Part shown: positions 20,101-40,936 of the stretch, in pieces
Position numbering within the stretch: position 1 is the stretch's first letter
Layout of the letters: each line of letters begins with the position of its first letter
Source: Undaria pinnatifida
Taxonomy: Eukaryota > Sar > Phaeophyceae > Laminariales > Alariaceae
Length of the DNA: 64,000 nucleotides
Direction of reading: 5' to 3'
Assembly: GCA_012845835.1 (NCBI GenBank)
Contig: JABAKD010000019.1
Span: 12,541,344-12,605,343, forward strand
Notes under the pieces: generated by a model
What the model saw: only the letters and a program-made list of their open reading frames with translations
Told to the model about the DNA's origin: nothing
The model's database searches: none
Translations under genes and position numbers: made by a program

Positions 20101-22042
20101 CGTCGTACATAATCCGTGCTTTGGCCATGTCCGGTCCTTTATAGCAGTATTTGTATATATAGGCAACTACTGCCATGGCCGTGACCAAATCAACGCCAAT
20201 GTGACAATCGTATTTCATGAGAAGGTATGGATTGTAAGGCACAATGTAGCGGTTATCAATTTCGGTCTCAACGTACTGGTTGGCCCCATTTTTTTGCTTC
20301 ATTGTAGCGGTATCTCGGTTGTCTAGACGTCGGTACTCGGCCCTTCCTGTCTTGGGGTCTGTTGCAAAATTGTCCCTGAATGGTTGAGGGTAGTGCTTTG
20401 AGCAGTGCTTTCTGTTCGTCTTGTGGTCTGTAGTCATGCATGGCGCGTTGGGGTTGAACTCCCCGCACTTTTGGTGTACCATGTACTTAATGACTTTTTC
20501 TCTCGGTTTTCCGCCGGCAATATATTCGTCCGGCAAGTTCGTCCACACCCACTTGCCCACCTCCTGACGAGCTTCAGGGCTCAGGCCGTCAAACCTTATT
20601 ACAATATGACTGTGGGGCATGCCCCTTTTCTGAAATTCAATGACGGAGAGGTGATAAATCGCCTTCCCGTAGAGGTTGTTCTTCAGGTCGTTCATGATAG
20701 CTTTAAGCTTTATTTTGAAAACGCGGTTGCGCAGATCCGGTCGGTCCATCGCGCATTGTCCTGGCAGCAAATTAGCTTGAATTTCAGGCCAGAACCCGTT
20801 GCACGTAACAGTAACCATTAACGACGGTTTCCCTTTGCGTGTGACGACGGCCATGCCGTCAAGCTGTCTCTTTTTACGGTTTGCTGGTGACGCGTGAAAT
20901 GCTGTCGGCAATTTTTTGCCCGTCGGAGTTGTGCCGACTGCACTTCGTAGAGCTTTGTATTGTGTGATTCTTTTCTGGCATTTGTTGGAACCGATGTAGT
21001 CTAGGGTGCTGTCCTCCTGTCTGGAATAAGCATCACATGCATATTCTTGAGCAAGGACGGAGAGTATGTGGAATACTTTTTCGCACAAAATTCGCTGGCG
21101 AACAAACGTCCAGATCTTGATTGGTTTGTCGCAAGTAGTTGAGAGGGTCCGAGAATCGTAGGGCGGGTCTTCTTTGTAGTAGCCTGGACTCCATCCTGGC
21201 TCGCCGTGAAAGAGCAGAAGTGGGTATTGTAGTGAGGAATACGTTGGAGACCAAATTGGCACAAAGCGAGGTCGATCGCAGATTTCACCCGGTCCAGTTC
21301 TAGGAAAGGTGTACACAAATCTTTTCGAGCGAGATTGCGCGTCGTCTTTGAAAATCAAAGCAGCGATTTCTTTTCCTGAGGGAGGAGGAGCGTCGCCGAC
21401 TACGGGCCCGTGTGTTTGTCGTGTGACTTGAGCGAATTCAATGCCGACATTGTCGCTAGGATCTGATTGATTGACCTCTAGGAGAATGGACTTGTACGTT
21501 TTTATCCAAGAGTTGTTCGCGTGCAGAGCTGCGGACAGGTTGGCGACGACTGTCTGGTCTAATTTTTTCTGTTTGGCAGCATGCTGAAGCATGTTCGAGT
21601 CGTACATGTATAGTTGCGCTTTGTTTACGACTGGGACACGCTCAGAGTAAGTTTGGAAGGCGTCCATGATGCGGTGGTAGGATCGACCGTGCAACTGAAG
21701 CATTGAAGGATAAGAGGGTTGTGTCCAAGTGGGTGTCGGAGCAGCGCCCATGGCGGTGAAACTAAACAACCCGTTATACCGGCGCTGGTTCTGTAAGAAG
21801 TGTTTTGTCTTGTACAACTCCTCAACGTCACTCGACAGCGGAATCAATGGCTCCACGACATACTTGCCGCTGGAGCAACAGTTAATAGTCTCCTCACGCC
21901 AAGTGCGAGCATTGCAGTGTTTGCAAATATCGTTGGACGGATCGTCCAGGGATGGAGCACGCAGAACGTACTCACTCGGCAAGGACACTGTGAGATCGCC
22001 AAATGTCAACACTCCCAACCTCGGAGTTGGTGGAGAGGACAT
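17132..22042 (-). CDS. Helitron Rep/helicase with C-terminal OTU protease domain (intact)
   Basis: This is a single uninterrupted 1636-residue reading frame for a rolling-circle (Helitron) transposase. Visible parts in order: an N-terminal zinc-finger-like cluster (C40, C43, C55, C56); a Helitron-type N-terminal region; a HUH nuclease motif PHSH with H477 and H479; a tyrosine motif around Y628-Y634 (YIYKYCYKG); an acidic linker near 760-775; a PIF1-like SF1B helicase with Walker A GSGKT at 997-1001, Walker B WDE at 1075-1077 and a C-terminal INKSQGQT motif near 1383; then an OTU cysteine-protease domain with GDGAC at 1494-1498 and a likely catalytic His at 1619. By family knowledge the Rep nicks and joins DNA and the helicase unwinds it; the role of OTU in Helitrons is not settled. 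All key residues are present and there is no intron, so the element may be active or recent. The ATG at 22042 is the first in frame. Its companion exons lie upstream on the same strand. Confidence 0.95.
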   Translation of the reverse strand: MSSPPTPRLGVLTFGDLTVSLPSEYVLRAPSLDDPSNDICKHCNARTWREETINCCSSGKYVVEPLIPLSSDVEELYKTKHFLQNQRRYNGLFSFTAMGAAPTPTWTQPSYPSMLQLHGRSYHRIMDAFQTYSERVPVVNKAQLYMYDSNMLQHAAKQKKLDQTVVANLSAALHANNSWIKTYKSILLEVNQSDPSDNVGIEFAQVTRQTHGPVVGDAPPPSGKEIAALIFKDDAQSRSKRFVYTFPRTGPGEICDRPRFVPIWSPTYSSLQYPLLLFHGEPGWSPGYYKEDPPYDSRTLSTTCDKPIKIWTFVRQRILCEKVFHILSVLAQEYACDAYSRQEDSTLDYIGSNKCQKRITQYKALRSAVGTTPTGKKLPTAFHASPANRKKRQLDGMAVVTRKGKPSLMVTVTCNGFWPEIQANLLPGQCAMDRPDLRNRVFKIKLKAIMNDLKNNLYGKAIYHLSVIEFQKRGMPHSHIVIRFDGLSPEARQEVGKWVWTNLPDEYIAGGKPREKVIKYMVHQKCGEFNPNAPCMTTDHKTNRKHCSKHYPQPFRDNFATDPKTGRAEYRRLDNRDTATMKQKNGANQYVETEIDNRYIVPYNPYLLMKYDCHIGVDLVTAMAVVAYIYKYCYKGPDMAKARIMYDGDEIEAYKSIRYISSSEAMWRIFGFDMQSRSPGVILLYVHLEGEQVVIHDEDDTAEQRRELAKNSQTDLMRYFRRPTGEPFDELTFLDYFEQFTVEPKQRRRKRGRRNQQRNESEDDNSDGYDSDDADPTATPNRIDGYGNYVYRRRSQCVCRVNFLKPDSGDVWYLRLLLHHIASQSREQIRTVDAVLHESHQSAAHALGLVADAQEYDLTLREALNFSTPRELRSLLVTLIIAGAPARDLWDTHKQHFMTDYMCRMSESSATDSALRQLDVMLAKHGKTTASVGLPHVSHPDTEYHRLLAAFNREDMRQEADGIIPKLNSEQRTVFDAVVNSVRNKAGGIFMIDAPAGSGKTFTMTAISADLRAKGNLVLCSASTGIAALLLPGGLTAHSTFKIPFGDNLVQGSVCNVKAETERAEVLRRADLIIWDEIPMSDKLAPEALDLTLRDLRRCDKPFGGATVLFGGDWRQVGPVVVFGTPADVVEASLISSYLWGKLQRFRLVQSMRDRLDKPYSRTVRAVGEGLIPPVTLPDESVVIPLEYTLPEEHDTESHPTASLPSTCSLSGTTEFQTLIDFVYPDILTAQPAEFADWGILSPTNASTDKINDHILNLLPNQLHSLKSSNTIIKSNPKDIEEVTSVEFLEKIDVPGVPPHQLDLKVGCIVMFIRNVNFDSGIVNGRKGIVRAISPRIVDVEIIAPGSPLVKVPRILFEVKVGRQGMCFHRRQFPLRVCYAMTINKSQGQTLARVGLDLRSDVFCHGQLYVALSRTTSSNSVLLLVQPERLINGVPHVANCVYAPFIEAATGNKLPEFNPIFYQPPNLNPPSRPSLPAPDQPQPPSSWNIVDEVGDGACLLRTIARKVFGDPEYHHQVRQQIVSHIHANQDYFFLHIQNGFGNEPIHVQGSSPQIYHSVQQYLQIMALPTAYAGYIEIAAAEILYGVTIEVRVAGTNYPPPADPHQPNILTVLFHANSLHYCTLSPSNAHNNNDSDP

Positions 22043-22284
22043 GTTTAAAAGATGAAAGTGTTTTATTTATTATTCAGAATCCAGAAGTCTTTAAAGACCA
22101 AAACACGCAAGCCTTGACACGAGTCAAGATCAGACGAAACGAAACCGGTGTTGCCTCTACTCCAAACGATGAGCAGAAAAAACGGTCACAGAAAAAACGA
22201 ACGCCTGAGCTCAAACGCAGGCACACGCACAAAAATGCTGGTAACTTACCCGGCTGAAGCCAAGATGCAAACCAACAAAAGGCA

Positions 22285-22739: not shown

Positions 22740-24468
22740 TCAAAGGTCGTCGTCAGAGTCAGGCGCGAGGGCAGCGAAGCCGACTGCGCTCTCGACCTTG
22801 AGCTTCTTTTCCGCCGACTCCTGCTCCTTCTTGAGGTAGTTCTTGTGGCGCTTGTCCTGGGAGCCGAAGACCAGGCGAAGGAAGTCCTTGCGCTTCTTGC
22901 GGGCGCACGTGTAGTGCAGGCGAGTCCCCAGGGGAGCGCTGGAGAGCAGGACGTCGCCCTCCTTGATGACAGGGTCGGCCTGCACGCACGTGGTGCACTC
23001 TTTTCCGATCTGCGCGGAAGAGAACAAAAAACAGGAACGGAGGAGGAAACAAATTTTGAAACAAAATTAGACTTGTTGCGCGGAGCAAAACACTCACTCG
23101 AAAATATAGTAGCTGCAACACAAACGGGAAACAATACATGCACGTTTTTTGCAAGCATTCTGCTCTACCGTGCGGCTGTCTAGTTCTTGCACAACCACTC
23201 ACACAGAAAATAAAAAGAGGGAAAACACCTTCTGTTCTGTATAATACTGGGAGGGAAAAAAAAATAAACGACTTCTGCATGCTGCACACATGTTGTATGA
23301 ACACATACATAGCAGCGTTGTTGTTGCGAACGTAGAACACGGTCGTACGGAGACAGCATGCAGAACTTGAAAAAAAAAAAAAAGTGGGAGGATCGAACCT
23401 GACGCTAATCACACGGCATCATGCAGGCACGCAGAAATGCAGTAATTTATAGGATCACTTGGATCACGCCAGAAAAAAACGGTGTGAGGAGGATAGAACC
23501 GGGGTCGGGGTGCGCACCACGATTCGTCGTATTCTATGAACACATTGCTTGTTGTGTTGCTCATTTCAACGCCAAACACGGGGCTGGAGGAAAACGCAGG
23601 AGAAAAAGAAACAACGACGGTGTAAAGATCGAATCGGGGTGACACCGCGAGCATACAGAAACTGAGACACGAGGAAAAAGCAGGTGAATACTGATGCTTA
23701 GTACTTGCATAGAGAAAAACACTCACACAAAAAATAAAACAGGGACAACACACACTCTCTGTTCCGTGAACGCTCATTACGCATAATACTTTGAGGTGAC
23801 AAAAATGAAAACAAAATTACTCCATGCATGCTGCACACATGTTGCGAACGTACAACACAGTGCGCAGACAGCATGCAGAAATTGAGACAAAAAAAAACTT
23901 GAGGATCGAACCTGGGATATAACCACAGGAGTAAAAAACCAGGAGTAAAAATGTTGGAGTATGTTGTATTTTATACGGTACAGAGTAAAAGAAAGAAAAA
24001 ACGCGTGAGGCGGATAGAACCGGGGTGCGCAGCAAGATTCATCTAACCCTACCAATACAGGACTGCTGTTGTTGCTAAATTTAACGCTTAACACGGGGCT
24101 GGAGGAAAACACGGGGAAAAAAAACGTTGGTGACACCATCAATCAGCAGGAAAATCCAGTGGGGTGCGTTACACTCCTCGTTCTTCTCTGTCAGACGTCA
24201 GGTTTGTTTGTAAATGCACCTTCCAACACACACACATATATTTGAAACAGCACTGGACACACTTCATCATGCCACGTCACATAAAAACAAAAACAACGGC
24301 GGGATACACGTGACGCGATGAAGCCAGACGCCTGTTCCCAATAGAAGGGAAAACATACAATAGATAGTGTACTCACGTCCTTGACAGCAGCGTTGCAGGC
24401 GAAGGCCGCGTTGTCCGTGCCTTTGGCCTTGTCCAGCAGGCAGTTCCTGAGGTGCTGGTTCGTGAACT
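22740..24468 (-). CDS. Helitron-1 companion gene, exons 2 and 3 (cysteine-rich, PARP-type-like zinc-binding)
   Basis: Two minus-strand exons are visible. Exon 2 (24377-24468) has an acceptor ...cacag and a donor gtgagt, starts with two bases of a split codon and contains QHLRNC (H..C). Exon 3 (22740-23009) starts in phase 0 after gcgcag and ends with a stop after DSDDDL. Exon 3 carries ECTTC, then IKEGDVLL, then LHYTCARKK. This CxxC ... H-x-x-C spacing recalls the PARP-type zinc finger; that fold is an inference. It matches the last exons of the companion gene at 37484-40936 in motif order, intron phase and acidic C-terminus. No start codon exists on this strand; the matching exon 1 is at 25022-25471 on the plus strand, so the gene looks broken by an inversion. 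The 700 bp between its stop and the Rep/helicase start hold a tandem repeat. Function unknown; DNA or RNA binding in transposition is plausible. Confidence 0.65.
23130..24145. repeat. Degenerate tandem repeat in the companion-gene-1 intron
   Basis: Blocks such as GAGGATAGAACCGGGGT, AACACGGGGCTGGAGGAAAAC, ATGCTGCACACATGTTG and GACAGCATGCAGAA recur two or three times at about 330-530 bp spacing (for example 23490 and 24010; 23280 and 23826). No exon is seen in this stretch. Confidence 0.55.
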
Positions 24469-24709
24469 CTGTGCAGCAGGGGAATGGGACGACAAAACAG
24501 AAAGGGCGTTGGTTGGTTGCAGCGGGATCTTTTGATAAAGATTTGTATGAGCGTCATGCATCTGAGCGTGCTGACGCGCACAGAAATGAGAGAGAGCAGC
24601 GAAAACGACAGAAGCAGTTGAACAAAAAAAAGTCATAGTTCAACAGAAAATCGTCATATGCCAGCTACGAGCACTGCTGTAAGGCACAGCTGTAAGGCAC
24701 AGCTATGCG

Positions 24710-24751
24710 CAGCTGTGTTGACACGAGCGTCCGTACAGGAGCACCCGGTTC
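24710..24751 (+). repeat. Left arm of the inverted repeat around inverted exon 1
   Basis: The 42 bases starting CAGCTGTGTTGACACGAGCG match the minus strand of 26252-26292 at about 35 positions. A shorter relative (AGTGTTGACACGGGC) is on the minus strand near 17032-17046, downstream of the Rep/helicase stop. Confidence 0.65.
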
Positions 24752-25021
24752 TGTATGCAAAATCTGGGGCCGGAACTGTTGGTGGTGTGTTTTGCAGGGG
24801 GAGCTGTTTCCGTGTACAGAAAGCTGATGATGTCGATTAAGATCGGCAGAACCCAGCTGAGTTTTGCGGGAACTTTTGCGGGAAAAGAGGCGTTTGAGGT
24901 CAAGATCTTTGGTTCAAAGATCTGTGTTCAAACCTAGAGCGCCTCGCGCTGCCCCTCTCTCTCACAACCCTCACACGCTCTCGTTCCTGACCGACAAACC
25001 ATACACCGAACAGCTTCGAGC

Positions 25022-25471
25022 ATGGCCCGCACGCCCCGCACCCCTGCACTCCCCGCAACTCCCCCGGCCGCTTCAGCTACTGCTGCTGCTGCTTCCACTG
25101 GTGGGGGTCCTTCGTCCCCTCCTGCTCCCCGTTCTACGGCAGAATCCCCTCCCTCGGCCCCTGTCAAGGACAAGCCCATTTCCTCCTTCGCCGACTACAA
25201 GGAGAAGTGGAACACGCCTGCGACTGCGAAGACGACCAAGCTCGAGTTCGACGAGGAGCTCCGCTGCAACCGCCCTTCCTGCCCCTTCACCCTCGTGCAG
25301 TTCATTCCCCCCGGAACCAACCCGCAGACCGGTGTGACCTTCGCCGTCTGCCGCTCTGGGAGCTGCGCTGGAGGCGGCACTATCCTGAGGTACTCCGCCA
25401 AGTGCTGCGCCTGCCACGGTACCATCCCGGAAGGGACAGTGTGCCTGTCTATCAAGACGGACTACGACAAC
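25022..25471 (+). CDS. Helitron-1 companion gene, exon 1, inverted relative to exons 2-3
   Basis: The exon opens with ATG in MARTPRTPALPAT, runs through an Ala/Ser/Pro-rich tail-like region to about residue 60, and then holds a cysteine-rich module: CNRPSCPF, FAVCRSGSC and CCACHGTIPEG. It ends at AACA|gtgagt (phase 1). If the donor is not used, a stop follows at 25480, giving 152 residues. Companion gene 2 has the same design in its first exon (low-complexity start, CPRQGC, YAVC, CDWC, phase-1 donor), and exon 2 at 24377-24468 starts with the two bases needed to complete the codon, but on the opposite strand. The C..C half-motif at its end would be completed by H..C in exon 2. Codons are strongly GC-rich at position 3, as in real exons here. 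It is most likely the original first exon of the minus-strand gene, flipped; a separate plus-strand gene cannot be excluded. Confidence 0.65.
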
Positions 25472-25885
25472 AGTGAGTAGTTGACTAAGTTCGTTCAATG
25501 TTGCGTGTTATTCTCATGCGTTTGTTCATGCATCTGTTCGTTTCTGTTTTATTCGCTGCTTCGCGCAATTTTCAACCGGACTGCACATACAAACATGTTG
25601 TCACACCAGTCTTTTTTTCAAGCTACCCAGAGTACGATGGTTGTACATGCACGGGTAATTTAGGGTGACGTGTCTCGGCCTATGGTTTTCGGCTGATGTA
25701 TGTGTCGATCTGTTGTCCGCACACTGCAGAAAAACATAGCTGTGCAGGTCTGCTAGAGCAGCGACGTTTCATTACGGCCCACAGGACTTGGTGAATTCAC
25801 GGCTACGACAGCAGCAGCAGTAGCAGCAGTCGTCGCAATGGTCGTCCTGCGATTCTTTGACAACCTACACAGCACAGAGCGGGGG

Positions 25886-26540
25886 CTCTGAGCAGTGTGT
25901 AGGCCTGTGCCTCTCGGCAGTGTGCTTAGCTTTAGCTAGGGGCATTTTTTGTTCAACTATACCCTGCTGGAGTTGCTGTAAACGTGTTCAACCAAAAGAG
26001 GCAGCTGCTGTTTTTCTGACGTGTTTTTGGACTGTTGAGCCAACAGCCCGCCAACAGCCCGCCGACAGCCCACGGAAGCGGAAAGAAAAATGACAGTCCT
26101 GCGCCAGATTTTGTATATAGCCTGTTACAGCAGCTGTGCAGCAGCTGTGCCTGCTCTCAGTGCAGTGTGCTCAAAACGTGTTATTGTTCTAAATTACTGC
26201 TGCTGCAACTGCCGACAGCTGCTGCTGACGTAGCACAGCAACAGCAGTGCTGAACTGGTGGCCCTGTACAGACGCCCGTGTCAACATAGCTGTGCAGGTC
26301 TGCTCCTCTCAGCAGTGTGTAGGCCTGTGCCTCTCGGCAGTGTGCTTAGCTCTAGCTAGGGGCATTTTTTGTTCAACTATACCCTGCTGGAGTTGCTGTA
26401 AACGTGTTCAACCAAAAGAGGCGGCTGCTGTTTTTCTGACGTGTTTTTGGACTGTTGAGCCAACAGCCCGCCAACAGCCCGCCGACAGCCCACGGAAGCG
26501 GAAAGAAAAATGACAGTCCTGCGCCAGATTTTGTATATAG
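25886..26540. repeat. Direct duplication, 235-bp units 420 bp apart
   Basis: 25886-26120 and 26306-26540 are almost identical (a handful of substitutions), from GAGCAGTGTGTAGGCCTGTG to TTTTGTATATAG. The open frames they carry are the same shadow frame and show no family features. A shorter shared block, AACATAGCTGTGCAGGTCTG, lies at 25735 and 26283. High identity indicates a recent event. Confidence 0.85.
26252..26292 (-). repeat. Right arm of the inverted repeat around inverted exon 1
   Basis: On the minus strand it begins CAGCTATGTTGACACGGGCG and continues through GTACAGG and CACCAGTTC, pairing with 24710-24751. The two arms enclose 1.5 kb including the exon at 25022-25471. Confidence 0.65.
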
Positions 26541-27654
26541 ACATACGTATGTGCAACGTGTATCACTGCTGTTTCGAAGTTTTTTCACCACACATCGTAG
26601 CAGTAGTAGCAGAGCTCGTTTCAAGAGGAGGCATAGGCACGGACACTGGTCGAGCTGGATGTATTATAGATGGGTGATGGGTGAAAATTTAAATATCGTC
26701 GATTTAATGTGAAGAATGCGCACATAGAGAACGACGAATGCCATTCTCCTAGGCCAGCCAACCCACGGAGGCCGTAGATTTTAGAAACTAACAAACATAA
26801 AGATGGTATAATAGCAAATCATCACTATTTAATCTAACATTTTTCGCTGATTTTTCGTGGGTTGGGCTCGCCTTGGAATAAGACACTCGACGGCTTCGGT
26901 ACTATTCTTAATACGTTTTCCTACCCAACTCGTACCCAACCAAAAAAGTTGTTTTCTCGCGAACACCCCAGTGCCACCATTTTAGACGGTATCATTATCA
27001 GTACTCTGTCGTACCTACTCTGTGATCGCCGTTGGGTCTCGCATTGTTCTATCAATTAATTCGCCATGCGTTCTACTCCGCATCTACACATATATATATG
27101 CCACTCCAGCTCGGGCAATACGTTAGTTGCCGTCGGCCATCGCTACATGCCACCTCATGACGTATAGCTACCTAAAAAAAAGTGATAGGTAATACGGTAA
27201 AATCTTCTTCTGGCAAGAGCGCGCGGCAGTACAAGTATGAGGCATCGTGTTGCGCGCGTGACATGGATCTGCGTACTACACGCTGCGTCTCGGAAGCGTT
27301 TGTTAACCCTACAGCCCGGGCTGCTTCGGAGCCGACGCTGTAGTCATGTCACTTTCATTTTAGGCATTTTACCGCCACCGTAACTTGAAACCAGAAAAGA
27401 GGGGACGCCAGCAGGGTGCCCCCTTATTTTTTCGCGAAAGCCTTCTGATGTTACTTGGAGAATGGGCAGGGTTAGTCCACTCCTCCGTGGTTTGTCGTCG
27501 ATACCCGACAGCGGCACGACAAGCGCGAGGAGGTTTGAAAGAATAGAAAACAGGTTACCAAAACTGTTGTGTTGATGGTACGAATGAAGCTACGTCGCAC
27601 TCTTTTTTTTTTGTGGGGGGGGGGGGCTCATCCCATCTATTGTGTTCGCAGTTT

Positions 27655-27795
27655 TTCTATCTCCTTCTCCCTCCCTAGACGTAACTCAGGGGTCACTAAG
27701 TAGGCTCTTCTCCCCCCTCCCCGCTACGGTACGCATCTTCATTTTTATCGCGAAAACTTTTCAGCACGTTCTTCCCTCGTCAACTCACGTCTAAT
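27655..27795 (-). mobile_element. Truncated SINE-B body
   Basis: The minus strand carries GTGAGTTGACGAGGGAAGAA, GCGTACCGTAGCGGGGAGG and GTGACCCCTGAGTTACG, matching 54725-54840. Confidence 0.6.
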
Positions 27796-28379
27796 TAGGC
27801 CATGATACCACAGGAATCCCAAAGAGTTGATACGCCATGCTCAGCGGCAAGCGCCACACTAAATCCTATATATAGTAGTGGTCCACCACTAAGGCGGTGG
27901 TTTGTCTAACTTGGGGGAACAAAAAATGTCGGAATCGTTACATTTTTTTTCAGCATCGTGATATTTGTCAGGAATCTTGATTTTTCAGGTCACGATGTGT
28001 GCCGAAAAAAACACGAATCATGACATTTTTTTTTCTAGACGTTTCCAAAGCGATTCATGATCGCGATCCGTGACAAATGTCACACCTCTCGAAAACACGA
28101 AAACACGCCTGATCAAGACACACAAAAACCACTCTGCACCCCATCTCCACCGAGAGAGATAGAGGATATCCAAGGCCGGTGGGGGCATATATGGGGCCTG
28201 GCATACCCTGCTAAGCACGATGATTGCGAGGAAAGGCGTGGTACTGCGGACGATGAGCAACTGCCACAGGAAACGCTGAAACGTCTGTGGCGCTTTGAGT
28301 GTAAACGTCACGAACCGTGATACATCATATTTTATCGTTAGGAATGAAATGTCAGGATTCGTGATATTTTATAGAATTA

Positions 28380-28450
28380 TTCAGACGTTGACGTCAGCTG
28401 TGAGTTCGACGAATTTAAGGGTCGATACTCATCTTTGCAAGCTGCGTTGT
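28380..28450 (-). repeat. MSIDPKFVELTADV element, frameshifted copy
   Basis: The minus strand has GCAGCTTGCAAAGATGAGTA, TCGACCC with one inserted T, AAATTCGTCGAACTCACAGC and TGACGT. Confidence 0.55.
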
Positions 28451-28671
28451 TTTTTACACCTAAAAGTCACGATTCCTGACATTTGTTTTTGTTCGGTAGG
28501 AACGACCCTGAAGAGCAATATGACCGCCTCATAGGGGGAAGCCGCCTTGTTCATTCAGAGATTTTTGTGCAGTTCCCCAGTCGCGCCAAGCGATTACGCC
28601 CGCCTTGTATCGGGATACCCGCCTTACTTGAACCGCCTTATCGCAGGACCCCTACTACTGTACGATAGACT

Positions 28672-28978
28672 TTTTTTTTTTTTTCTCACACATTTACTTT
28701 CCAGCTTCTGGACAAGCCGTGGTCACAGGTGTCGTCCCTTCTCCCCCCCGGTTCTTGCCTTTAATTTTTATCGCGCATAGGGTTCAGCAATCCCACTGCT
28801 CGTCGATTTTTCATCGAGTGTTGCTAACTCACGCTCTCGCGCTTTCCGCGAGTCAATTTGTCCCCCAAGAAAAAGTCCCCACGAATTTATACGAGTATGC
28901 ACTCGGGGGGATTCGAACTCACGAAACTGACCTATACCAGGCTCGAGGATAACCTGATACGCCACAGGGGCGACCGGT
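28672..28978 (-). mobile_element. tRNA-headed SINE, copy 2 (SINE-A)
   Basis: Collinear with the copy at 16306-16630 over its whole length, with a 16-base A tail (plus strand T run at 28672-28687). Main differences are the poly-G length and a few indels. B-box GAGTTCGAATCC is intact on the minus strand. Confidence 0.75.
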
Positions 28979-30429
28979 TCTGTTGAAGCCTGGCGTAATA
29001 TTTAAGGTTTCCACCATTGCTCCGAGCAGGCGTTTTTCATTGTGGGGAGCATATACTTGTGTATTGTGCCCAAATAGCTCTCACAGCAAGCAGTGTGCGT
29101 TCTTCACATTAAACTCCCACCCATCTACGTCTAGCGCATCTAGCGCCCGTGCCAGCGCTTCCTATAGAGACGAGGTCTGCTACTGCTGTGGTCGCAAACT
29201 ACGAGGCAGATATACGCATCGCAAATACAGCAAGGTGGTTTGGCCATGCAATGCCAACGCAATGGACACGCGGGCACTAGTTAATGTGTGTTGCTGCTGT
29301 GTCGCGTTAATAATTTGGGGGGTTTCTCTTGCCCACCAACAAGAACCGCCAATAGAGTACTCAGGGCAACGCTAAAACCTTCGTATTGCCACACCATCCT
29401 TTGACATTGATATTAATAGATAGTTTATTTATTGGATTGTGGTGTAGCGCGCGACGGCCCAATGCTGAGCGCTTTTGTCTTCGTCTTATTTCTCGCGAAT
29501 GTCCCAAAACTTTATTTTTCCCCATCCGCCGGAGGATAAAAAAAGTCCTCCGAAATAGTGAGCATCGGTTTCGTATTTCTCGATAGATCTTTGCTTATTT
29601 TCTTGCTCGTAGGCCCATGCTGGAGTAACCCGTATACTATTGCTGTAGGACGGAATGAGTCGAAGCTTGTCCGGCAGTTAAGATTTACGGAAGGATATGT
29701 TTACGCTCTACGGCAGGATATTCGATTTACATCGGAACGGCATCATATCTTATGCGTTAATATTATCGGAGGGAGAAAAAAAACAATTAAGTTAGGATTG
29801 ATATCGGAACGGCATCGGCGCTATTTTGTCGTAAGGCCAAAATATGCTCATAATTATAATATTATTGTTGCTATGATCATTACAATTTATACCGTAATGT
29901 TGAGGATTAAGGTAGACTCAGCTATAACACGCGAGGTATATACGGAGTATATCGTAGGGAAAGGAAATAGTACTCACTTGTAGATAAAAGGAGAAGATGT
30001 GGGGAGAGGAAATGGGCAAATGGTTGGCGGAAGATACCACTGCATTATAGTGCGATCATTCGCCTTCAGAATAGGTGCTACTGCTGCTTTATGGAAGGAT
30101 ATTCGATTTGTATCGAAAAGGCATCTACGCTACATTGTCGGAGGGCAAAAATAATAATAATGTACAAGGGCTCCGCTGCGCGGGCGGCTATCGCCGCCCG
30201 CTACGCTCGCGCAAGAAAAGGGGCCGAATAGATGCACGACGTGGTGCAATTAGCGACTTGAAAATGCCAAGAGATAGAAGGGAAAGCATTGTGAAGTTGA
30301 CACGTACTCGAAAAACACTCAGGACAGAAGACACAGTGCATCATAAAAAAATATGTATGGCGGAGGCATAAACATATGTATCACAGAAGAAACGATGGTG
30401 TTGAAAATTTGAATTATTGCAAACGGAAA
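28979..30429. other. No gene recognised; repeated GATATTCGATTT blocks
   Basis: 29700-29800 and 30090-30155 share GGATATTCGATTTRYATCGRAA, GGCATC and TCGGAGGG. 29925-30155 matches 48755-48945 on the other strand (GTAGATGCCGTTCCGATGTA, AAATCGAATATCCTTTCATA), so this is a dispersed repeat. Confidence 0.5.
29505..29546 (+). mobile_element. S1 tail fragment
   Basis: Only the 3' end, TTTATTTTTCCCCATCCGCC followed by GGAGGATAAAAAAA, is present. Confidence 0.55.
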
Positions 30430-32090
30430 CAACGACAACGTCGTTTTGATCACGGATGGTCGTTGAAAAACACAAAAACACGAACGGAGGGCGTTGCCGT
30501 GTAAACCGTCAACACATGTACGTGTAACACTTGAAGAACGAAAGCCACTTACTCTATATAAAATGCGCCGTGCAACATATCGTCGTCCCAAACGCCGAAA
30601 ACTTCCGTCAGGTTCAAGATGGGCATGCAGACGCAAGCTAGTTACCGAAAAAAAAATGCTGTGCAAACGCAAGGAGGGTCGCAATAAAAGTTGCCGCGTC
30701 CGTTGAAAAGCACAAAGAAAAGCGAAATCCACCGAGATATAAAACCGGCCGTGCGACATAAATCCCGGCATGTGAATGCGGTAGGAAAAGACGAACTCAA
30801 TTACGTATAAAAACAACAGTATTCCCATCGCCTTGCATCATGACGAGGAAAAGCGTGCGATCGAAGACAAAAGGCAAAAGCTACTTAATTAGTCGCCGTG
30901 CATCATCACGAGGATGTGCGTGTGGAGACGACAACAGACGAAAGCTAATTCTAAAGCTATTTACTTGAAAAAAAAAAAAAACACTGCAATACAATCGTTG
31001 TGCATGACCACCGGCATGTGAATGCGGTAGATAAAGACGGCAGCAACGTATAAAATCCGCCGTGCAACATCACCATCGCCTTGAATCATCACGAGGAACT
31101 GCGTGTGGTGGAAGAAAAAGATGAAGGCAAAAGCGCACAAAATCCGCCTTGCAACAGTACCATCGCCTTGCATCACCACGAGGAAGAGCGTGCGGTCAAA
31201 GACAAAAGGCGGAATCTACTTAATTACTCGCCCTGCATCGTCACGAGGATGTGCGTGTGGAGACGACATCAGACGAAAGCTAAATCTAAAGCTATTTAAT
31301 TTTAAATCCGATCAAAAGCACAAAAGACGAAATTCACCAAGACACAAAACTGGTCGTGCGACATGACCATAGCCGTGCATTGTGATTCGGAGGAGGATGT
31401 GGTGGCGAGAGCTACATAAAAAGTGGATGTGCAACATCACGCCCAACTTGTAATAACACCGGCCGTGCATGATCACAATGATGTGACCGTAGCAAGAACA
31501 CAAAAGTGGAAAGTGCACTCGCCACAACACTTGTGAGCATGACTACCACCACTTGAATGCGGTAGGAAATGACGAAAGGAAACATGTATAAAAGTCACCG
31601 ACGAAAGGTCATTGTAAAGCTATTTACTTATAAAATCCGGCGCACATCATGTGCTGAAGCATCAAGTATAAAGCTAGTTCAATGTAAAACCGGCCGTGCA
31701 ACATGAGCATCGCTGTGAAGCATCACTGAAAGGTGCATGCGGTAGAGCACACAACACGAAACGCACTTCATTACTTGCTGCGCATCACGACGACCACGTG
31801 CGTGCGGAGACTGCAACATACGAAAGCTACTTACATATAAAACCTGGTGTACAATATGCCCATCGCCGCGGCATCATCTGCAGGTGGAAAAGCATGAAAG
31901 ACTCAAGTTATTTACTTACAAAACCCGCCGCGCATCACCACCATGCGTGTGTGGTGAGAGCATGTGGTGGAGAAAAAATTGCGAACGCTACTTAACCCCG
32001 CGGTGCCATCATTGAACAGACCAAAGCTATGTACTTACGAAAATCGCTGCGCGTCACCACCAAGCGGGTGTGGCGAGAGCATAAAAAATC
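30430..32090. repeat. Degenerate ~85-bp tandem array downstream of Helitron 2
   Basis: Roughly twenty diverged units carry GCCGTGCAACAT, CATCATCACGAGGA, TGCGTGTGGAGACGACA, CGAAAGCTA and TTTACTTATAAAA blocks in the same order. It begins about 370 bp beyond the stop of the OTU/helicase frame. No gene is seen. It could be the 3' non-coding part of the Helitron or an unrelated satellite. Confidence 0.65.
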
Positions 32091-32461
32091 GCCAGCTTAC
32101 TAGCGATAAGGTGAAGGACACTTGTCACATTTATGCCCTCTATTAGACGCAGCGCAGACCTCTGTCGACGACACTTAACCCGCACAACGTTTGTCGGGCA
32201 GGACGAAGCCGAATGGGCAGAAACCCAATCACACGTCTCCTGGAAGGCCGCGGGAATCTTTTCCCGGGTCTCAGCGTCATCGAAAATTGAGCTTGTAGGC
32301 GCACAAATTTCTTTGGCTTTGCCGGAGATGTCGGCAGGAAGCCAGGCAGGCGGCGCGGCTCAGATAAACGCAGAAGAATGCGCTTCATGTGGACGAGCCA
32401 GCCTGAAAGAAGGCCGTAAGAAACACGGCGTAACAAAAGCAGTAGCGTAAGAGGAAACTTG
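32091..32461. other. Intervening region between the tandem array and the Helitron-2 stop
   Basis: A GC-balanced stretch that is open in several frames on both strands (about 100 residues each) without recognisable motifs. It is probably the 3' untranslated part of the Helitron-2 transcript. Confidence 0.35.
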
Positions 32462-34924
32462 TCAGGCTGACGCGTTGTAATGTAGAGATACGTAGTAGGA
32501 GGAAGAGGGTAAGTACATTATATTGCATGTGCTGTCGGTTGGAGGATCAGGGCAGAGTTGGTTGTGCTCTGAGTAAATTGTAACTGAAATGTTAATGTTG
32601 TAGATGAGCTGCGCAGCAACAATTTCGAGATAGCCGGCGTAGGCACGAGGGTTAGCCATTAGTTGAAGATATTCTTGAGGAGAGGAATACATAGCTGGTG
32701 GGGCATTAAGTGTTTGTACTGGTTCAATGCCTATACCGACGGAAATGGCGTCATGGAAAGATAACTCTGTATTCGGTAGTGTTTCGTGCAGGTGTTGTTG
32801 AATATACTCAATAATGCTGGTGCGAACGGAACTGTGTTGTTCAGGGTCACCCAGGACTTTGCGTGATATGCATCGTAGCAGGCAAGCTCCATCTCCAACT
32901 TCGTTTACGACAGTCCAGTTGTTGCGAGATGAAGGTGGAAGCGGAGGAGGAAGGAGAGGTGAGGGACGCGGGATGGGGTTGCCAGTTGCGGCTTGGATGA
33001 AGGGAGAGTAGACGACATTTGGAGCATGGGCTATTTCGTTGGCAACATGTGAAGGAGGAACGAGGCACATAATCGAGCGTCTGTTCTTGACACGACTAAG
33101 GGCAACGTACAGCTGGCCATGAGCAAATATGTCATTTCGTAAATCGAGCCCGATGCGCGACAGGGTTTGTCCTTGAGATTTATTTATTGTCAGAGAGTAG
33201 GCGAGGCGTAGAGGGAACTGCACACGACTGAACTTGATACCTTGTCGACCAACTTGGGCGTGGAAGTTGATTCGTGGCACAAGGATGATGGGCCGATGGG
33301 CGGTAAGAAGTTGCACTTGGATGACACGAGAATTGGGTGAGACTCCCAACAACACACATTTTTGGCCGTTAACGAGACCCTGCCCGAAATTCAAATTCCT
33401 CGTTAGCATCGCTAGGTCGTTTGACCGAAGCTCTAGTTGGTGAGGCGGAACGCCCTGTGCGTTGAGAAGGTTAAGGTGTTCAGGAGCAGCAAAAGCCGTG
33501 TAGGGGTTTGACTCATCGCTGATAAGGGTATCCGAGCTGAAAAATGAAGTGGCGTTTTCAGACCGCCTTTCGGCGATGTCTTTATTGGAAGCGTCAATGG
33601 CAGTGTTAGTAGTCGCAAGAATGGCACGATCATGCATAAGATGTGTGTCTTCGTTCAAGTCTGGATACACAAAGTCAACGAGGTCTTCAAAATCCGTGGT
33701 AAACTGAAGTTTGAAGTTGTCAGTTGTTGAATTGGTGCCGTTGTTTGATAGGGCAATCATATCGCCGTTAGGTGTGTTGACGACAGCTTGTCTATCTTCT
33801 CCGACGGCACGAACGAAGGAGGCGTACTGTGGGTCTTCTTTATCGCGTTGCGAGGCGGTAAGGCGTAAACAGGCAATATTATTCCAGAGGAAACTGGAGA
33901 TGACGGCGGCTTCGACAGTGTCAGACGCGGAACCATATTTGACCACTGGGCCCACTTGCCTCCAATCCCAACTAAAAAGAATGGTTTTACCACCAAAAAG
34001 GCTGTCGTTATTGAGCAGGTCTTGTAGTGTCGTGTTTAGCGCTTCCACGCAGTACTTATGTGACATTGGGAGTTCGTCCCATATGATCAGGTCACAGTTG
34101 CGGATGAGCTCTGCGCGTTGGGATTCACTACGAATTTTGCACACTGCTCCCGGCACTACATTTTCATCAAGCGGCAAATTGAACATGGAGTGGGCAGTCC
34201 AGCCGCCTGGGAGTTGAAGCGCGGCAATTCCAGTAGAAGCGACTGTCAAAACGACACGCCCATTGCCACGCAAACGTGCTGCTATAACCTTTTCAGTAAA
34301 TGTTTTCCCGGTCCCTGCAGGACTATCAGCCATGTACGCGCCCGGTTTGTTCAAAGTAACAGACTCGATAATGGTGGAGTAGATAACGCGTTGTTCCTGA
34401 GTAAGAAGATTTTCGTTGTCATCTGCGTATTTAGTTTGTTCTATACGATCAAAAGCACCTCTTGTACGTTGAAGTTCTGATTGTTGATGTATGGCGGCAG
34501 GAAGATTGACCTGTTCGTTGTCTCTACCGTGTAGCTTCAATTTAAGGTCTATTTCCCGTAAGGCTTGAGCGATCGCCTGTGCTCTTGTCATAGACATGCG
34601 AAAGTCTTCTATTAGATCATCTTTGAAATCTTGCCATAACTTGGCAGCTGGGGCACCATCTATAATGAGCGTCACCAGTAACCCTCGAAGTAAGTTTGCT
34701 GTTTGGAACGAAGTAGCTTCTTGCATGCAGATGAAGTATTCCTCATCACCCGTGACGAGCCCTCGAGCCCGAGCGGCATCGTGAAATGTGTCGTGCACGA
34801 CGGGCGGTCCGATATCGGAGTGTAAAGTACGAAGTTCGACAAAAGATCTGGCCGGAATTTTGTGAAGGAGGAGTCGAAGGTAAAAACATCGCCAACGGCA
34901 GGGCTTTTGAAATGTATACGGCAT
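32462..34924 (-). pseudogene. Helitron-2 Rep/helicase, C-terminal part (PIF1-like helicase plus OTU), after the frameshift
   Basis: This frame (820 residues as an open frame; true homology starts near YLRLLLHKI) continues the Helitron-2 transposase. It has Walker A AGTGKT at 203-208, a Walker B WDE in LIIWDELPMS, a DWRQVGPVV motif and the C-terminal SF1B motif INKSQGQTLSRIGLDLR. It ends with an OTU domain (GDGACLLR, and a C-terminal SLHY histidine close to the stop). The apparent ATG at 34924 lies upstream of the frame switch and is unlikely to be a real start. Order, spacing and sequence follow Helitron 1, but identity is only moderate, so the two loci are separate families or old relatives, not a recent duplication. 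Without a frameshift correction the Rep and helicase would be separate proteins. Confidence 0.85.
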
Positions 34925-37401
34925 ACATGCTCTGTAGTCCTCGTAGAAACAATGTTACCGTACTGGTCAAGCCATTTTCCGGCCGGTGCAGAAGTCGGGA
35001 AGCGGTCATCTTTTTTTCTTTTTGTGATAATATAAGTTTCGAAATAGGAGAGCAAAGTAAGCCCGGTGAAACGTGCCGCAGTGGGACGTTTAAGGTAACG
35101 CATAAGATCGGAGGCGGCGCCGCGAGCGATAGCTGCGCGTTCTTCAGTGGAAGCATCGGCAGGGTAAACGACGTTGTTTTCTTCCTCAAGGTGGGCGTGG
35201 ACACGGGTAACTGAGGGGTAACGGCTGTTAGATTCAAAGCCTAACATCTTCCAAGTAGCTTCTGCAGCCGAAATATATCGTGTAGTTCGGTACATTTCGA
35301 TTTCACTTTTAATTCCAGAGATCCTGGCTTTGGCGAAGTCGTTGCCCTTCGCGATATACTTGTAGATGTACTTAGCACATGAAGCAGCGGTAACGACGTC
35401 AACACACACGTGACAATCTAAGAGAAGGAGTAAAAACGGATTATAGGGGACCACCCACTGGTTGCCCACTGAAACATCGACCCATGAGTTGCCGACTTTG
35501 TTACGTATGATGGGATTGTCGTCACTTTTAGTCCTGCAGTACTCAGCGCGGCCGCTGCGTTCATTTAGGGTGGCGGTTGTCCTAAAAGGTTGCGGGTAAT
35601 ATTTATTGCATGACTTAATGTTAGTATCCCGGTTTGTTTGCATGCATGGAGCGTCAACGTTGTGAGAGCCGCAAGGCTTATGAATCATATATTTCAGAAC
35701 CATTTCACGCAGCCTTCCGCCTGCGAGAGACACATGAGGCAATTGCGCCCAAACCCAGGAGTCCATTTGGTTGAGAAGATCAGGGCCGGCATTTTTGAAC
35801 TTCACAACAACATGAGCGTGCGGAAAACCTCGTTTTTGGTACTCAATAACAGACATATGGTAATCGTAAGGCCCAAACACTTTACCGCTTTTCAGGTGAG
35901 ACATGAGCACTGCAAGCTTGATTTTGAATACTCTACAGCAAAGGTCTGGACGGTCATAAGCTTGTTGACCTTGTAGGAGGTTTTGCACAATTTCAGGCCA
36001 AAGCGGGTTGCAAGTCATCGTTATCATGAGGTGTGGTTTGCCCTTTCTATTAACAACTGCAAGAGCGTCTTCTGTGTCGTGTTTACGCTTGGCAGGCGAG
36101 CCATGAAACGAAACAGGAAGAAGTTGGCCAGGTTTTTCGGCGCCGCTTGATTGTGTAATTGAACGCGCAGTGGCTAACCGTTGCTGAAAAGGTGCTGCTT
36201 CGATATATGTAAGCGTATTTTCTTCACTTCGAGACAAATTGTCTGTAATCCACTCTTGGGCAATACGACTATTTCTTTGGAAGACACTTTCACAAAGAAT
36301 GCGTTGCCTGCAGTAAAAAGGGAGAGTAACATGGGTTTTACCTGACACGTTCATGGTTCGAGACTTATTCGGAGGATTTTCATGGGCATGGCCAGGGCTC
36401 CAACCAGCTTCGCCGTGCATAAAAAGTAGAGGGTACTGTAGGCTCTCGTAAGCCGGCGACCAAAGAGGAAGGAACCGAGGTCTGGAGTCTGGACTATTTT
36501 TGGGGTATGTTATAACGGTTCTCTTCATAACGTCTTGTTCACCTGATGTGTAAAGGATAGCCGCGATTTCGGGGGCGCATATTTCTTGGCCGAGGACGTT
36601 CCCGTCGTTGACTCTGCTAGTTTCCGCAAATGAGATAAAGGCTGGTTCGGAACTAATGGCGTTAGAATGAATGATGTCGTCGACAGCAGCGCGAAATTGA
36701 CGAGCCCATGAAATATTTTCGCGAACGTGGGTGCGCAACGTTTCCGCAACACCAAGGTCGATGCCTAGTTGTTGGGCCTTATCTACAAATTCCGAGTCGT
36801 AAATATAGAATCTTGAGCTATTGTTGACCGTCATGGTTTCGTATTTTTCTTGGAGGTCGAAAATGCGATGGTACGCTTTCCCATGTAATGTAAGCATTGA
36901 CGGAGGCTTAGGATTTGTCCAGGTCCTACTTTCACAACCGCCGGCGGCGAGCGCTGTAAAAGAGAATAGGCCGTTGTATTTGCGTTGGTGGGTCCTAAAT
37001 GCTGGCGAGCTGAAGAGACGCCAAATATGATCACTAACAGGCCGAAGGCGTGGAATTACAGCGGCACCGGATTTGCAACAGTTCAGGTTTTTTTCTTCCC
37101 ACCAAAGTTGGGCGCCGCAATGCTTGCACGTGAAGTTGTTTGCGTCGTTCAAAACAGGAAACCGAAAATTAGATGTTTGAGGGATATGTAACTCAGGTGC
37201 GTTGAACTCATACACGCCAAGAAGGTGTGGTGATTGTCGAGCCCTGCGTCTGGCGTTTAAGATATGATGTCGAAGAGCGCGACGACAGCGAGCTATTTGA
37301 CCGGTGTCAGGCATACGCCTGCTAGCCATGATGGCAGCGCGAAGATTTCGGTTGAGGCGTGATCGAAGCCTAACTTCTGAATTATTGGTTAAATCTGACA
37401 T
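34672..37401 (-). pseudogene. Helitron-2 Rep/helicase, N-terminal part (Rep), before a frameshift
   Basis: This 909-residue frame encodes the first half of a second Helitron transposase. It has an arginine-rich N-terminus not present in Helitron 1, a zinc-finger-like cluster (C92, C95, C108, C109), a canonical HUH motif PHAH (H528, H530) and a tyrosine motif YIYKYIAKG at 678-686. Alignment with Helitron 1 stays good up to VCRIHFKSPAVGDV. The frame then diverges for about 70 residues into unrelated sequence and stops. The break lies at a run of five T (minus strand) at about 34882-34886, where one base is missing relative to the frame that continues in the next entry. Everything before it looks intact, so the lesion is recent, an assembly error in a homopolymer, or a used frameshift. 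The start lies 82 bp after the stop of companion gene 2. Confidence 0.85.
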
Positions 37402-37483
37402 GTTGTAACAGCAAAGTAAGAGCTGAACGCTTGAAGAGGGTAAATTACCCGGCAGTAAGGAAAAACACTCAGTAGGCTGACCT

Positions 37484-40400
37484 TTAAAATCCGTCCCCGA
37501 AGTCGTCGGGGATATAGGCGCAGGCCTGCTTCGCCTCCTCCTCTACGGAGGTACCGAGCACCTTGCACTCTTGCTTGTTTGCGACGATCTTGTGCAGCTG
37601 GTGACGGGAGAGATTGGACAGCGGCAACAGGGAAAATAACGGATAAAATGAAAAGGTTAACTGAGGGCTAGTAATTGCCGAACCGTTGTTGCTTATATTC
37701 AATCCGTACAGTACAGACATTATGGTGAACAAATCCGCACTGGGCCACAGAGCAATGTACAGTTACGTACCGCCCTTCACTTTTCGAGACTGTCACACTG
37801 AAACCGAAAAAAGGGCTGAAAAAAACAAAATATGGATGGTCCCGTGGAAGGTCCCGTGGCTGTTATTTATATGAAGCAAATCGTGGGCCTAGTCTGCCAA
37901 CTTCACACGTTTTGGTGTATTCTGTCTTACTCAAGCGTAGCGAATACCGTAGAGATGCGGCAACAAATCCGCACTGCGCCGCCCCTCATGATCCAACTGC
38001 AGTACGTGAAAAACACAATGAACAGCTACGCAACACAATTCCGCCGAAAGAGTTAAATCACATTTATTTATATATACGTGAGTCTAGATGAAAATATACT
38101 ACCGCACATTGTTCTCAGGAGTAGCAGCAGTAAACACGCAGTCTAGGAAAGTATACAAAGAGCAGTCCATACCTCTTCGTCGAAGTGGCGCTTTGCGCAG
38201 TGGAAGTGGAAGGCCGGGGGGTCTTCCAGGAGGTAGTCGCCTGATTTTTTTAGAAGGATGTCGCCCTCCTTGATTTTCCCGGTGCAGGTTATTTTGATGT
38301 CGTCGCCGATGTCGTCGCCCCTGGCCGCCGCCTCACAAGGCTTCTGCAAACGACAACAATGTGCAACAGTAGTAGTGGCCATTGGTCAGTGCTTGCATTT
38401 TGAAAAAATAATTTGAAAAATCCAAACATCTTCCAAGCAGTGTCGGATCTAAGACTTGCCGAACTACTACTCCCGGTACGTAATCATACCGGGTTGTTCG
38501 GTACGCCCAACAATAATACCCGAACATATTGTTGTGCCCACCAATACCCGAACATATTGCTGTGTTTTCCATACGATATCATTGATATGTAAAACAGCAC
38601 AACAGCAGTAAGATCGTTACGTGGCACATATTTATTTATTGGTACTGTTTGAAACAGCATCAACTTTAAACAGCACAATCAACACAGATATCAGAAGAAA
38701 AACGGCGCTGCGGTGCGATACCTACAGCAGCAGCAGTAGGTATTGTGGCATCTAACTGCTGTACAGCAGCCATAGCACAATAATACTGGTAACACTATTA
38801 ATACTCGTATACTTGGTACGTTTTTCTTTCATGGCAAGGTTTATAACAGGACCAACTTTAAACAGCACAGCCAGCACAGATATCAGAAGAAACATAGCGA
38901 AGCCAACGAATAAAATTGAAGCACAAACATCAGCTATGTGTCGTAAGTAGGTACGTGCTTTCCATACAAAACACTTACGTAGTAACACAGCAGTGCCATC
39001 TCATAAAAAATTACGCATCGCGCAATTTCAAACTTGTATCTGTGTGCAACGACTAATTTCGGGGATCTTTCATCTAAAAAAAAAAGGACAACAACTGCTG
39101 TGGCTCACCCCGATCACGGGGCTGTCCTTCGACACCTTCGAGCAATACCTATTAATAGTGCTGTGTGTATGTGTAACTGAACGTATAGCACCCGCCTACC
39201 GCTGTGTCGTTTTGCAGCAGTAGTCCTGGTAAGTGGCATGTTTCAAAGCATGTAGTCTATTTGTATGAAAAATATTTCAAGGACGTTTCCCGTACATTTC
39301 AGGTCATTACTCATATTTGCAAGGTGCGTTGTTGGTACTTGTAATATACTATACGGGTGAGTTTTTAATGGGAGGGGTCCTATTTTTTGTCCGCTATAAA
39401 TAGTAAGTTGTACAGCAGTCTACGCATCGCGCAAATTCAAACTCGTATCTGTACTATTTTTCGGGCTATTTCATGTAAGAATAAAGGGACAACAACTGCT
39501 GTGGCTCACCCCGATCACGGGGCTGTCCTTCGGCACCTTTCAGCAATACCTACTGCTGTAGACTATATACGTACAATTGAACATGTAGCACCCGCATACC
39601 GCTGTGTTGTACTGCAGCAGTAGTCCTGGTACGCGGCCTGTGGCAACATTTTTTTTTTTTTTCATCCTCCCGCGGATGGGGAAAAATATCTAATTATACA
39701 GCAGTCAACACGCCCACACAAAAGCCAAACAAACAAAACGTACGTACCTGGTAGCATTGTGATATCATAGAAGTATCATGTGAAAAAAGCACGCCAAAAC
39801 AGGAACACATCAGTGACATATCAATGAAAAAAATATGTTTCGCGCAATTTCAAACCTGTACCTCGTTCGAATCTGTAATGTACTATTTCTCAGGGCTATT
39901 TCATCTAAAAGAAATGGACAACAACTCACCCCGATCACGGGGCTGTCCTTCGGCACCTTCCACCCAAACTTGAGCTTCAGGTCGCTGCGGCTGCCCAGGC
40001 AACACGTCCAGACCACGTGGTAGTTGTTCCACTCTGGTTTCGAAAATAGGAAACAGCAAACGGAGTGCACGAGAAACAAAACGTTATGGAAAAACGATGC
40101 ATGTCCGCTCGTTGGGACAAAAGGTGCAGCAGTCAGTCTCCAAACAGCACCACAGGCGACTCGAACTACAACAACCCATGACGCATCGCAGTTAGCCAAT
40201 CGAAACCGGGTGGGGACGTGGGGACACGTCAAACCCGGAAAGCCTGTGACATGCGGCGCCGATCAGACCGTGACAACGAGATCAAGCCCTGCTCAAGGAC
40301 GACACACGAAATTTCGTACACACACAGGAAAAAGCAGTGAAACAACACCGACACTTACTATCAATACAACAAAAATATGGCAAGAGAGTCTCCAAACAGC

Positions 40401-40936
40401 ACAACAACCCCAATCCAGCATGCCTGTCCAGACACGGTGCTGATTAAACCGTCGCAGTCGCCTCAAGCACTGAAGGCCAGTGCGATTGTCAACACCCTAT
40501 AATACACTAGCTACTCCAACCGAACAGGAACAAATGGAAACTTACCTTTGGACGAGCTGTCCGTTCCGTCGCTGGGCACCCCAATGGAAGGTGACTCCCC
40601 TGTATCTCCGTCGCACCAGTCACACGTGCGAGCGAGGTCGCTGTTCGTGCCCCAATGTTTCTTGTTGACGTTGTAGAAGGCCTGGCAGGTGTTGGCGTCG
40701 TCGAGGCGACGAGTCTCGCAGACGGCGTATTGCGAGTTGCTGTTTTTGCGCGTTTTGGTCAGCAGGAACCCAGGGCAGCCTTGCCTGGGACACGGCCAGA
40801 GAGGGTTACCTTTCTCAGGCACCGGACCGACCAGCGTCCACGACGCCGAACCACCACCACCTCCACCTCCGCTCTTACCACAGCCAGTACCCGCCTTAGA
40901 ACGCTTTGCAGGAGACGTGCGGTAGATAGACGACAT
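37484..40936 (-). CDS. Helitron-2 companion gene, four exons, cysteine-rich PARP-type-like zinc-binding protein
   Basis: Four minus-strand exons fit together in phase: 40546-40936 (phase-1 donor AAAG|gtaagt), 39930-40033 (donor gtgagt, phase 0), 38173-38343 (donor gtatgg, phase 0) and 37484-37597 (stop). They give 780 nt, 259 residues plus stop. The start is ATG in MSSIYRTSPAKRSK, followed by a glycine run. Cysteine pairs follow: CPRQGC, YAVC, CDWC completed across the intron by YHVVWTCC, then KITCTG, IKEGDILL and FHFHCAKRHFDEE. These resemble two zf-PARP-like C..C/H..C modules (inference). The tail is acidic (DDFGDGF). The gene ends 82 bp before the Helitron-2 Rep start on the same strand, and its relative sits in the same place at Helitron 1. 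A nuclear nucleic-acid-binding role in transposition is plausible but unproven. Intron 2 contains repeat copies of the exon-2 end. Confidence 0.75.
39268..39347 (-). repeat. MSIDPKFVELTADV element, diverged copy
   Basis: Minus strand CACCTTGCAAATATGAGTAA to CGTCCTTGAAATATTTTTCA; the central part is altered. It shares the TACTTGTAATATACTA flank with the copy at 8245. Confidence 0.5.
39645..39690 (-). mobile_element. S1 tail fragment
   Basis: A T run followed by CATCCTCCCGCGGATGGGGAAAAAT, the terminal hairpin of S1 with one change. Confidence 0.55.

Follow-up and report, generated by a model that had tools for sequence, protein, structure and literature searches.

Two Helitron genes on the minus strand

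The window, i.e., the whole 64,000-nucleotide stretch of Undaria pinnatifida DNA that was analyzed, had a G+C content of mostly 43-56% in 2-kb steps and contained 0 Ns. As the first-pass annotation had reported, there are two Helitron loci in it, both with RepHel-OTU genes on the minus strand and both with the Pfam domains Helitron_like_N, PIF1 and OTU, the OTU domain being carried by Rep itself. A second, cysteine-rich gene, hereafter called the companion, lies on the 5' side of both Reps (Table 1).

Table 1. Positions of the Helitron genes, companion exons and related features in the window
Feature	Position	Strand	Remarks
Locus 1 Rep/PIF1 helicase of the Helitron, OTU domain at the C-terminus	17132..22042	-	Open frame (ORF of 1644 aa); first ATG at 22042
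Locus 1 companion exon 3	22740..23009	-	CTTC...IKEGDVLL...HYTCAR, acidic C-terminus, stop
Locus 1 companion exon 2	24377..24468	-	Phase-1 acceptor; NQHLRNC completes second predicted zinc site; phase-0 donor
Inverted-repeat arm, 61 nt, 77% complementary	24685..24745	.	One flank of inverted exon 1
Locus 1 companion exon 1	25022..25472	+	150 codons + 1 base; donor GTGAGT; orientation opposite to that of exons 2-3
Inverted-repeat arm, partner	26257..26317	.	Other flank of inverted exon 1
Locus 2 PIF1 helicase + OTU half	32462..34954	-	Different frame from Rep half
Locus 2 Helitron Rep half (Helitron_like_N)	34672..37401	-	Frame broken before helicase
Locus 2 companion exon 4 + stop	37484..37597	-	Least supported exon
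Locus 2 companion exon 3	38173..38343	-	KPCEAA...ITCTG, IKEGDILL, HFHCAK; relatives in P0008, P0009
Locus 2 companion exon 2	39930..40033	-	YHVVWTCC would finish second zinc site; phase-0 donor
Locus 2 companion exon 1	40546..40936	-	MSSIYR..., C-x4-C...YAVC-x10-C, CDWC; phase-1 donor; P0001 99% identical
P0014 residues 1-118	36544-36897	-	Locus 2 Rep part
P0014 residues 119-149	24377-24469	-	Locus 1 companion exon 2
P0014 residues 150-238	22743-23009	-	Locus 1 companion exon 3

The locus 1 Rep ORF (minus strand, 17132-22066) encodes 1644 amino acids with Helitron_like_N, PIF1, Pif1_2B and OTU domains, and P0015 is 99% identical to it. The same domain set was found at locus 2, where the Rep frame was judged to be broken because the domains are split over two frames (34672-37542 and 32462-34954) that overlap at 34672-34954. 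The combination by which a Helitron is recognized, i.e., a Helitron_like_N Rep domain and a PIF1-type helicase in one protein, was found in a single ORF at locus 1 (PF14214, E 2.1e-33; PF05970, E 6e-58) and in the two overlapping frames at locus 2 (PF14214, E 3.6e-37; PF05970, E 1.1e-55). A Helentron has an AP-type endonuclease fused to RepHel; in the three Rep ORFs, no endonuclease domain reached E 0.001, and by this feature the two elements are not Helentrons.

The two Reps were 42.9% identical over 812 and 42.7% identical over 836 aligned columns, in agreement with the moderate similarity noted in the first-pass annotation. A quick Rep tree had 32 rows: two for the window loci, represented by their helicase parts, and 30 drawn from the 120 relatives listed. 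In this tree the locus 1 clade (11 rows) and the locus 2 clade (7 rows) each received 100% SH-aLRT support and were joined at 82% within one 20-row group, which fits the earlier suggestion that the pairing of companion and Rep is old. The locus 1 clade contains Scytosiphon promiscuus (P0018), Ectocarpus sp. (P0021) and Laminaria digitata (P0023), which we take to represent the kelps and Ectocarpales. Given this span, the split between the locus 1 and locus 2 Reps would, if they were inherited vertically, predate the kelps and Ectocarpales.

Gene models of the two companions

The four minus-strand exons proposed for the locus 2 companion were recovered, with GT-AG borders, intron phases of 1, 0 and 0, and an open product of 259 amino acids; YAVC is encoded at 40685-40729 and IKEGDILL at 38254-38274. 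The companion lies 5' of Rep, and only 82 bp separate its stop from the Rep ATG. When a protein database was searched with this product, 10 of 737 candidates had E values of 1 or better. One of these, P0001, showed 99% identity over half of the query, P0003-P0007 and P0010 were related to exon 1 and P0008-P0009 to exon 3, with no relative of exon 4 among the database matches. Six exon-1 cysteines were invariant in 7/7 aligned sequences of the locus 2 family. The only other Undaria model of the locus 2 type that was found, P0002 (HiC_scaffold_21.g09488; 47% identical), has the same exons 1 and 2 joined in a related copy, followed by a different tail, predicted to form a long helix, in place of exons 3-4. 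Within intron 2 of the locus 2 companion (39012-39962) we observed duplications with copies of the exon-2 end and its GTGAG donor, which are possible decoy splice sites. Degenerate tandem repeats (GAAACGCCAAATTTACCGGCTACAGAGA-like, ~70% alike) lie immediately 5' of the companion start, at 41050-41490.

The earlier description of both companions as upstream of Rep and on its strand holds for locus 2, whereas at locus 1 only exons 2-3 lie on the minus strand and exon 1 lies on the plus strand. Because of this orientation, the phase-1 junction of locus 1 fits only with the exon-1 segment turned round; with that proviso, the matching phases claimed for the first two junctions (1 then 0) are present in both genes. 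When joined in this way, the locus 1 junction reads ...TDYDNKFTNQHLRNC..., which finishes a C-x2-C...H-x3-C site. Exon 1 of locus 1 encodes an Ala/Pro-rich N-terminus, C-x4-C...FAVC-x4-C (FAVC at 25340-25366) and CCAC, the first half of the second predicted zinc site; IKEGDVLL is encoded at 22947-22967. The motifs quoted in the first-pass annotation, i.e., FAVC/YAVC, IKEGD(V/I)LL, the C..C and H..C pairs, H..CA(K/R) and the acidic C-terminus, were all present.

In the database search with the joined locus 1 product, 4 of 6360 candidates had E values of 1 or better. P0011 (Undaria HiC_scaffold_21.g09478) matched the window exactly, with residues 1-143 corresponding to exon 1, 152-181 to exon 2 and 182-219 to the tail of exon 3; this model omits most of exon 3, either because it was annotated that way or because it represents a splice variant. 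P0013, from Pylaiella littoralis, aligned across all three exons in a match covering 88% of the locus 1 product, with 136/266 aligned residues identical (116/190 from residue 79 on) and 15/17 Cys/His residues kept. With the exons in a single order in P0011 and P0013 aligned throughout, these protein matches indicate that the joined three-exon gene is real. It also follows from the exon order of P0011 that the exon-1 segment of the window copy is inverted or misassembled. The 61-nt inverted repeat on either side of this segment may be the inversion breakpoint; by calculation, flipping the segment between the arms would give an intron 1 of ~1.06 kb, the other four introns measuring 0.51-1.59 kb.

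The region from 24469 to 26320 may be a rearrangement hot spot or a site of assembly trouble, and P0012, a gene model on scaffold 9, also has exon 1 in both sense and antisense. P0012 matches locus 1 exon 1 exactly over 148 residues and then continues with antisense exon 1 (70 residues, 25199-25408) and antisense Rep (46 residues, 19203-19340), so that there is a second place where a single gene model includes both companion exon 1 and a Rep piece, in a rearranged order. Scaffold 19, to which the window belongs, and scaffolds 21 and 9 all carry near-identical gene models of the locus 1 type, and the P0011 cluster comprises 8 sequences. Judging from these models, the locus 1 companion is multicopy, i.e., not a single-copy gene. 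Between the locus 1 companion stop and the Rep start (22218-22725) there are direct repeats, 142-162 bp apart and 73-91% alike in the aligned pieces, which perhaps mark a promoter region.

Undaria P0014 (HiC_scaffold_19.g08474) matched the minus strand of the window exactly and in order. This model is an annotation chimera, in which a locus 2 Rep part has been fused with the locus 1 companion across 12 kb. On scaffold 21, P0011 (locus 1 type) and P0002 (locus 2 type) have gene numbers ten apart (g09478 and g09488), and the two companion families seem to lie close together there too.

The companion products, of 259-270 amino acids, have a low-complexity segment at the N-terminus, rich in Gly or in Ala/Pro, and end in an acidic C-terminus. 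From the spacing of their Cys and His residues, approximately three zinc sites per protein are predicted. Predicted module 1 has the form C-x4-C...C-x4/10-C; predicted module 2 has the form C-x2-C...H-x3-5-C and is split by the phase-1 intron; the predicted last module is C-x2-C...H-x2-C in locus 1, with a different spacing in locus 2.

A putative accessory gene of brown-algal Helitrons and its alternatives

We consider it probable that the companion serves the OTU-bearing Helitrons of brown algae as an accessory gene. The first-pass annotation had already proposed a second gene travelling with these elements, and several results support this: the gene lies 5' of each of two 43%-identical Reps from separate supported clades; the gap to Rep at locus 2 is 82 bp; near-identical models occur on three scaffolds, with companion exon 1 and Rep linked in P0012; and both the Cys/His residues shared with Pylaiella, from a second algal order, and the exon-1 cysteines of the locus 2 family have been conserved. 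The link is also supported by relatives of both partners in other brown algae, although these came from separate species, with the companion in Pylaiella and the Rep in Scytosiphon, Ectocarpus and Laminaria. Several observations were counted against the accessory-gene reading. On scaffold 9 the standard order is not kept, the P0002 tail replaces exons 3-4, the two products are alike in the last finger only, and none of the 120 Rep relatives listed contained a companion-like stretch. Neither window copy is a clean, intact unit, as exon 1 is inverted at locus 1 and Rep is frameshifted at locus 2. In addition, Helitrons typically begin with TC, end in CTRR behind a hairpin and insert between A and T; a scan of the 3' flanks for the hairpin plus CTRRT gave 0 hits in either flank, with 0.3 and 0.35 expected by chance.

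An unlikely alternative is that a Helitron ancestor captured a host zinc-finger gene that has since been carried as a passenger and contributes nothing to transposition. Gene capture by Helitrons and Helentrons is described in the part of the literature available to us (PMC4067079), the companion has no recognized transposition domain, and the two loci differ widely outside the last finger. Such a passenger would not, however, be expected from the occurrence of the companion with Reps of two old clades or from the Cys/His conservation between Undaria and Pylaiella, and none of the named database matches carried a host function name.

We also regard as unlikely the possibility that the two companions are unrelated cysteine-rich genes, alike by chance or convergence, which would be compatible with the accessory-gene reading in that one or both may be Helitron-linked. 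When the two whole products were aligned locally, their score was reached by 12/2000 shuffles, and that of the last exons by 4/2000. The similarity of exon 1 alone (405/2000) and exon 2 alone (920/2000) was at chance level, as expected of unrelated genes, and hhalign of the two family alignments gave a probability of only 21% (E 0.0011), limited to the IKEGD...H..CA stretch. Against this stand the shared IKEGD(V/I)LL...H..CA(K/R) block in those last exons, and the motif and finger order and junction phases common to both companions. Moreover, a search with a profile of locus 1 and Pylaiella ranked locus 2 at the top of 5001 sequences (including 5000 shuffles), albeit by a margin of 0.1 bit (9.4 vs 9.3 bits). 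A common origin of the two companions is therefore likely as judged from these comparisons; it is the last finger for which it is likely, the remainder being unproven.

It is improbable that the companion belongs to a separate multicopy mobile element that inserts near Helitrons or nests in them, the pairing reflecting proximity. The exon-1 segment is flanked by repeats, and its inversion in the window and its sense and antisense copies in P0012 show that it rearranges on its own; but the 82-bp gap at locus 2 and the location of the companion on the same side at both loci argue otherwise, and no other transposase domain was found in the scanned Rep ORFs and companion pieces.

In Pfam, neither product nor any of their relatives gave a match near the cut-off, the best being E 0.033 for a piece of P0008, and nothing convincing was found for the companions in NCBIfam and PHROGs. 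Pfam likewise gave no match to zf-PARP (PF00645) up to E 10, subject to HMMER filters, no match to zf-GRF, and no sequence match to RPA (OB fold) up to E 10. A three-finger zf-PARP profile, made from PDB-confirmed fingers, scored 2.2 bits with locus 1, 1.0 bits with Pylaiella (outside a finger) and -1.2 bits with locus 2. The locus 1 score was reached by 15/2000 full shuffles and by 37/2000 with Cys and His held in place; for locus 2, 259 and 400 of 2000 shuffles were as good. With a zf-GRF profile, none of 5 sequences scored above 1.1 bits, and at least 38/2000 shuffles were as good. The companion has the C-x2-C...H-x2-C layout of the zf-PARP finger of PARP1 and DNA ligase III, and a local match, CCACHGTIPEGTVCLSI, to the zf-PARP profile, but with scores at or near noise and no Pfam match, membership of either family is unsupported. 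It is thus highly improbable that the companion is a zf-PARP (or zf-GRF) protein of this known DNA-binding type, a reading otherwise compatible with an accessory gene, and the label "zf-PARP-like" given earlier could not be upheld in the sense of membership.

The EsV-1-7 motif has the form C-x4-C-x16-C-x2-H, and by eye the companion is without its C-x2-H end. As with the companion, this cysteine-rich repeat is a possible brown-algal zinc finger and is found on a brown-algal transposon, according to the available text of that study (PMC12477816). Two predicted structures were too poor to be of use (mean pLDDT 30.6 and 50.0), and a search with the second model gave no usable match. At the level of sequence, the companion would represent an orphan cysteine-rich family, belonging to no recognized family.

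Proposed role and comparison with known elements

If the companion is an accessory gene, the ancestral arrangement would have placed it 5' of RepHel, on the same strand and within the element ends. Its most likely mode of action would be that of a nuclear, zinc-dependent nucleic-acid-binding cofactor that is required for transposition. As such, it may hold the single strand displaced by the Rep/helicase, as has been proposed for RPA in plant Helitrons; alternatively, it may mark the element ends for Rep. In lineages whose Helitrons lack an RPA-like ORF, a conserved, element-borne zinc-binding partner, if confirmed, would be a concrete candidate for protecting the displaced strand and choosing the ends, and would widen the definition of an autonomous Helitron in stramenopiles.

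In the account of Helitrons available in part (PMC4067079), RPA is proposed to bind single-stranded DNA during transposition, and plant Helitrons and Helentrons with RPA-like ORFs also have a second ORF beside RepHel that is thought to bind nucleic acid. That ORF is recognizable as RPA, whereas the kelp companion has no Pfam match. Helitrons carrying Fanzor1 likewise have an extra gene with a zinc site; as far as their published description was available, however, Fanzor proteins resemble TnpB and have a long conserved motif, whereas the companion is short and has no such Pfam match (PMC3627910). The nearest published arrangement that we found is proto-Helentron-Pi of Phytophthora infestans, in which the first ORF beside the Rep/helicase encodes a hypothetical protein (218 amino acids, EEY70650.1), as given in the accessible part of its description (PMC4067079). 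Like the kelp loci, this is a stramenopile Helitron-like element without an endonuclease and with an extra first ORF; unlike them, it also encodes a SET-domain protein and, in its last ORF, a further hypothetical protein, the likeness being one of description (PMC4067079).

The companion family is undescribed as far as our database and literature searches reach, and to that extent the earlier statement that it is absent from the usual catalogue stands, although a hypothetical first ORF had already been described in proto-Helentron-Pi. The portion of the Ectocarpus transposon survey available to us lists 13 families in its table row for Helitrons and mentions no companion gene there (PMC12477816), and the word "helitron" is absent from the text available for the Undaria genome paper (PMC7929912). 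A broader proposal, which we advance tentatively and hold to be doubtful as a whole, is that the companion is a lineage-wide, three-zinc, non-RPA-like Helitron cofactor. Its position just upstream of RepHel would predate the split between Laminariales and Ectocarpales, and it would handle the displaced strand in place of RPA or recognize the element ends, and might share an origin with the first ORF of the oomycete proto-Helentron.

Companion exons have been misplaced in chimeric brown-algal gene models, i.e., P0012 and P0014, and gene catalogues would be corrected accordingly. Elsewhere in the window, two same-direction repeats of ~310 bp (16318-16629 and 28672-28976) are 85% identical and contain a tRNA-like stretch, GTTCGAATCCC, and may represent a SINE family, and a tandem duplication of ~440 bp with 95% identity lies at 9444-10324.
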